In this document: positions 13,654-16,138 of the stretch, piece by piece
Numbering within the stretch: the stretch's first letter is position 1
Layout: every line of letters starts with the position of its first letter
From: Boletus sp. NGJ
Lineage: Eukaryota > Basidiomycota > Agaricomycetes > Boletales > Boletaceae
Direction: 5' to 3'
NCBI GenBank assembly: GCA_019096195.1
Contig: JAGTXK010000091.1
Coordinates: 434,001 to 498,000, forward strand
DNA length: 64,000 nucleotides
Position numbers and translations under genes: made by a program
The notes under the pieces: model-generated
What the model was told of the DNA's origin: nothing
Seen by the model: the letters and a program-made list of their open reading frames with translations, nothing else
Database searches by the model: none

Positions 13654-16138
<2,485 letters not shown>

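Follow-up and report, generated by a model that had tools for sequence, protein, structure and literature searches.

A predicted 5-nt coding exon between two short introns in a Slt2-type MAP kinase gene of Boletus sp. NGJ

Introduction

Exons of only a few nucleotides are documented in several fungi. In Fusarium, the CYP621A genes carry a 1-nt exon that is conserved in 20 orthologues and covered by RNA reads in two species (PMC12940212). Very short exons, down to 2 nt, are described as typical in Phlebia radiata (PMC6540522), and in the P450 genes of Phanerochaete chrysosporium the shortest micro-exon is 6 bp, with introns of 45–55 bp (PMC1184071). Two other articles treat micro-exons, in the accessible portions of their text, merely as a read-mapping setting (PMC3990503, PMC4014442). 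A literature search for 5-nt exons returned none on a fungus, as judged by titles and the starts of abstracts, and a search for an Slt2 micro-exon or for Slt2 intron positions in basidiomycetes found nothing.

Here we describe the exon CTATG in a predicted MAP kinase gene of Boletus sp. NGJ. It is located in a window of 64,000 nt (assembly GCA_019096195.1, contig JAGTXK010000091.1, positions 434,001 to 498,000 of the forward strand), and all positions given below are those of this window. A first-pass annotation, made from the letters of the window, had put the exon forward as one that ordinary annotation would miss. With lengths of 1, 2 and 6 nt already published for fungal exons, it is a further example of a known fungal phenomenon, sound but ordinary in kind.

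As in Fusarium CYP621A, a tiny exon keeps the frame within a conserved motif and was detected through an uninterrupted relative, and the interruption as a whole spans at least about two introns of ordinary length; the Fusarium exon, however, has 1 nt and is backed by 20 orthologues and RNA, whereas the Boletus exon has 5 nt and is known from the DNA of one genome (PMC12940212). Intron-rich genes with exons under a few codons are shared with Phlebia radiata, although there, in the part of the article available, the exons are genome-wide features of gene models, with no single worked MAP kinase example seen in that part (PMC6540522). The white-rot basidiomycete P. chrysosporium likewise has tiny exons beside short introns, but in another gene family, and the exon studied here is one base below the 6-bp minimum of its P450 genes (PMC1184071).

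Materials and Methods

Protein queries were aligned to the window with a spliced protein-to-DNA aligner whose splice-site weights were set by hand. Donors were GT, or GC at a penalty, acceptors were AG, and no frameshifts were allowed. Five other kinases from the same genome were used as queries at seven intron penalties, giving 35 runs; these queries are not fully independent, since their proteins had themselves been spliced with the same aligner and the window protein as a guide.

Splice models between the flanking exons were enumerated with 0, 1 or 2 introns, each with a minimum length of 30 nt, a GT or GC donor and an AG acceptor. For the chance expectation, the segment comprising both introns and the exon between them was shuffled 50,000 times by dinucleotides, keeping the outer splice sites fixed and taking introns of at least 40 nt.

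Results and Discussion

Host gene

The features of the gene are collected in Table 1. The 634-aa model has an ATG and a C-terminus that are based on the open frame alone, while its kinase domain is modelled in 12 exons (15904–14287), is translated without a stop and can be matched to MAP kinases along its whole length. The product matched the protein kinase domain of Pfam (PF00069) with 215 bits; catalytic motifs including APE are present, and the TEY activation motif is found at residue 249 of the model. Among the best 60 of 232 solved sequences matched, the top three were MPS1-type MAP kinases, with 442 bits, and MAPK7 (ERK5) and MAPK1 (ERK2) reached 374–377 and 342–347 bits, respectively. 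By these matches, Slt2/MPS1 is closer to the gene than the other MAP kinases are.

Table 1. Predicted features of the MAP kinase gene, in window coordinates.
Feature	Position	Strand	Remarks
Predicted coding region, Slt2-type MAP kinase, 634 aa	16138-13654	minus	outside the kinase domain, open frame only
16-nt micro-exon ATACATTTTCATGGAG	15549-15534	minus	23 of 35 runs
10-nt micro-exon CCCATGGAAG	15480-15471	minus	26 of 35 runs
17-nt micro-exon (GYTTA)	15020-15004	minus	35 of 35 runs; score reached in 0 of 20,000 shuffles
70-nt exon upstream of CTATG	14941-14872	minus	3' end GGGAAAGA
Upstream intron (intron 1), 51 nt, phase 2	14871-14821	minus	GTAAGTTT...CCCAG; donor GTAAGT, acceptor CAG
5-nt micro-exon CTATG	14820-14816	minus	last base of Asp, whole Tyr, first base of Val
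Downstream intron (intron 2), 53 nt, phase 1	14815-14763	minus	GTAAGTTT...CTCCAG; donor GTAAGT, acceptor CAG
77-nt exon downstream of CTATG	14762-14686	minus	5' start TGGACCAAC

Within the genome, the gene is 57% identical to a gene on contig C89 and 46–50% identical to four other MAP-kinase-like genes. Since the gene on C89 has a much stronger match to those MPS1 chains (558 vs 442 bits), it was filed as the probable canonical Slt2 gene and the window gene as a putative divergent Slt2-type paralogue, not an orthologue. The labels given to the paralogues (Hog1, canonical Slt2, ERK-like) are our own assignments, based in part on the matches.

Exon boundaries and reading frame

Reading the stretch 14890–14690 on the minus strand gave CAG/CTATG/GTAAGT, an internal exon of 5 nt, far below 51 nt and bounded by AG and GT; the coordinates and letters first annotated for it, for both introns and for the flanking exons were correct. 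Enumeration of splice models and translation of the skip and retention products indicate that its inclusion is required for both the frame and the known protein sequence. As the first-pass annotation had stated, omission breaks the frame: joining 14872 directly to 14762 gives GKDGPTQQNS followed by a stop, so that the product starting at the ATG at 16138 has 303 aa, compared with 634 aa for the full model. Retention of intron 1 leads to an immediate stop (296 aa of 634) and retention of intron 2 to a stop after 325 aa of 634. The encoded stretch had also been called the exact Slt2 sequence, which is true of D-Y-V, the residues that the micro-exon helps to spell, but over the 12 residues only 10 are identical to GRDYVDQLNQIL, the sequence common to the canonical paralogue of the same genome and the PDB MPS1 chain 8h59.

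Both introns start with GTAAGT, a donor with the top score under the hand-set weights that is common to 6 of the 69 introns examined. Intron 1 has a branch-point-like CTGAT about 16 nt from its 3' end. No YTNAY branch-point-like site was found near the 3' end of intron 2, the single one being 43 nt away; among the other introns of the gene, two have no YTNAY site at all and one has sites only 46–54 nt away. In addition, intron 2 contains CTCAACTTTCAG (14793–14782, minus strand), in which an internal TTTCAG is a possible alternative acceptor that would produce a 34-nt intron and a frameshift. These two properties of intron 2 are mild weaknesses.

Since skipping and either retention all give early stops, the exon might act as a regulated on/off switch, with skipping or retention cutting the kinase short at about 300 residues or exposing the message to nonsense-mediated decay, and a micro-exon of Xlr2 in Trichoderma virens is described as such an inclusion switch (PMC11121469). 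We consider this quite unlikely here. Frame-breaking products of mis-splicing are to be expected at many introns, so that regulation is not needed to explain them, and constitutive splicing is favoured by the donors of both introns, since no other hexamer in the set scores higher.

Spliced alignment, splice models and shuffles

In the spliced alignments, the exon at 14820–14816 was placed by all five queries and in all 35 runs. For the queries L009 and L015, the site lies inside one unbroken exon and reads GRDY, and the motif there is therefore free of any splice assumption.

Enumeration gave 1004 models, of which 132 kept the frame open throughout. The 5-nt model was the best of the 1004, with a score of 189 against the C89 segment, and the next two scored 172 each. 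Only three in-frame models had no intron or one; their best score was 72, and all of them lose YVDQLNKIL. The two models next in score, both in frame, lengthen the middle exon by using an acceptor at 14842 (26 nt, seven more residues) or a donor at 14803 (17 nt, four more residues in the motif), and are very improbable, since they add residues to a motif in which none of the aligned kinases has an insertion, and require a 30-nt first intron ending in AAAG or a GTGGAT donor, respectively.

Among the 50,000 shuffles, 8 produced an exon of 5 nt that had a GTRAG donor and spelled GKDY, GKEY or GKDH. When the length was left free, a right-phase exon reading GKDY was obtained in 323, and 13,974 contained at least one stop-free exon in the right phase. 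Since these looser criteria are satisfied more often, the evidence lies in the conserved residues together with a good donor, not in the mere presence of AG and GT. The real value of a combined residue and splice-site score was reached in 0 of 20,000 shuffles. A pattern search of the genome for GTAAGTTT followed by TATG gave 63 forward and 71 reverse matches, and the reversed control pattern 142 and 134; it was uninformative.

The protein comparison, the enumeration and the shuffles thus bear out the main claim of the first-pass annotation, a predicted 5-nt exon in a Slt2-type MAP kinase gene. As far as the sequence allows, CTATG is very probably a genuine, constitutively included coding exon, with flanking introns that are recognised by intron definition and removed in succession, and it would have arisen by intron gain.

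Recognition and removal of the introns

The gene is presumably transcribed and spliced as modelled. Inclusion of CTATG would then restore the frame and contribute D-Y-V to GKDYVDQL, a motif of the kinase domain. Plants and fungi are proposed to rely mainly on intron definition, which limits the size of the intron and not that of the exon (PMC2614967, a hypothesis paper), and the median intron length was 54 nt over the 69 introns of ten genes. Introns this short under intron definition should be recognisable by themselves, so that the introns on either side of CTATG, with 51 and 53 nt, would be recognised separately. For the same two reasons, the earlier argument that such an exon is below the size allowed by most exon-definition models applies poorly here. 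Since 5 nt is probably too small to hold both splice-site complexes together (the crowding being our own inference), the two introns would leave one after the other.

Other tiny exons in the gene

Three more tiny exons were called in the same conserved domain (Table 1). The score of the 16-nt and 10-nt exons as a pair was reached in 0 of 5,000 shuffles. In the runs that missed them, one or both were left uncalled, and two runs with the query L018 gave a 7-nt exon instead. Four of the 10 internal exons of the window gene have 20 nt or less, compared with 1 of 49 in nine related kinase genes (Fisher p = 0.002), genes that were picked for a good match to the query and not at random, with doubtful introns in some of the models. 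Possible alignment errors were retained in both counts (69 introns, 49 internal exons): the intron of L016 at alignment nt 654 (36 nt, GC donor), the GC-donor introns in L010, L015 and L017, and the long introns in L029, L009 and L017. With a frame-critical 5-nt exon and three further tiny exons in one conserved domain, the gene would lend itself well to testing gene finders.

This unusual load of tiny exons, together with the greater divergence from the MPS1 chains than that of the C89 copy, might be ascribed to a decaying paralogue, in which apparent micro-exons result from relaxed constraint or from assembly error. Such an origin is highly improbable, since the spliced kinase domain is fully open and its motifs are present; with regard to assembly error, the 801 bases around the site match only the window itself in the assembly, so no second copy or allele speaks for or against it.

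Origin of the intron pair

Under the preferred reading of a genuine, constitutive exon, the positions of the two introns suggest how it came about. The position of intron 1 (alignment nt 653, within the Asp codon) is common to the canonical Slt2 gene on C89, and that of intron 2 (nt 658, 5 nt downstream) was absent from nine of nine related genes, C89 included. On this evidence, the micro-exon probably originated by gain of a second intron 5 nt downstream of an older one, at the position shared with the canonical paralogue. As to direction, gain rather than loss elsewhere would be the simplest reading of nine genes from one genome. Intron gains in basidiomycetes are treated in general terms in PMC3584928.

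Duplication of an intron was considered as the origin of the pair and rejected, since the likeness of the two introns is mostly their shared donor. Compared whole, their similarity score was reached by 1.2% of 1485 pairs (55 of the 69 introns, 40–62 nt long); once 8 bases had been trimmed from the start and 4 from the end, it was reached by 23.6%. As a check for an introner-like element, with near-identical copies elsewhere in the genome, the 126 nt spanning both introns were searched for and gave only the self-match at E up to 10, in a search that may miss short or diverged copies.

The arrangement resembles the near intron pairs of Drosophila, in which an older and a newer intron position are less than 32 nt apart (PMC2891723). 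Unlike those pairs, for which coexistence in a single gene was held very unlikely in the text available (PMC2891723), the window gene has both introns, 5 nt apart, in a genome with short introns, and coexistence would be in keeping with short introns and splicing by intron definition. That an old and a new intron 5 nt apart coexist in one working gene, tolerated under intron definition, is put forward tentatively, as a rather doubtful proposal. If true, a near intron pair would be an intermediate that lets an intron position seem to slide along the gene. In Cryptococcus, intron sliding was not clearly seen, according to the portion of the study available (PMC2740785).

Introns at other offsets within the same few bases of other kinases are as expected if the near-pair process recurred: L018 (Hog1-like) and L029 have an intron at alignment nt 655, and L016 a doubtful one at 654. 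The locus would permit a test of whether close old and new introns can coexist under intron definition, a question relevant to changes in intron position.

As a separate observation, the MAP kinases of the genome (L010, L018, L029 and the window gene at 14871–14763) have introns at three offsets within 5 nt of the same motif (nt 653, 655 and 658). Scans of viral_contigs (3 stretches) and genome_contigs (20) gave no relative of the gene; these hold viral or prokaryote sequence, with no bearing on conservation in fungi.

Genomic surroundings

A gene at about 12550–13500 on the plus strand of the window is convergent on the MAP kinase gene, and it may encode a P-loop Fe-S scaffold protein of the Nbp35/Cfd1 type. 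In the genome, the fungal peroxidase extension PF11895 had no match, and since none was obtained in the controls either, its absence was given no weight. Three kinase matches on contig C59 have counterparts on contig C127 that are equal or close to them in score and agree in order and strand; of the spacings, one is shared (19.5 kb) and the other differs (41.5 vs 22.0 kb), and retained haplotype copies are one possibility. The hydrophobin family PF01185 had 21 matches in the genome, which loosely suggests an Agaricomycete-like, mushroom-type fungus, and nine hydrophobin-family matches lie within 19 kb on contig C119 (100155–119014), likely as a tandem cluster.
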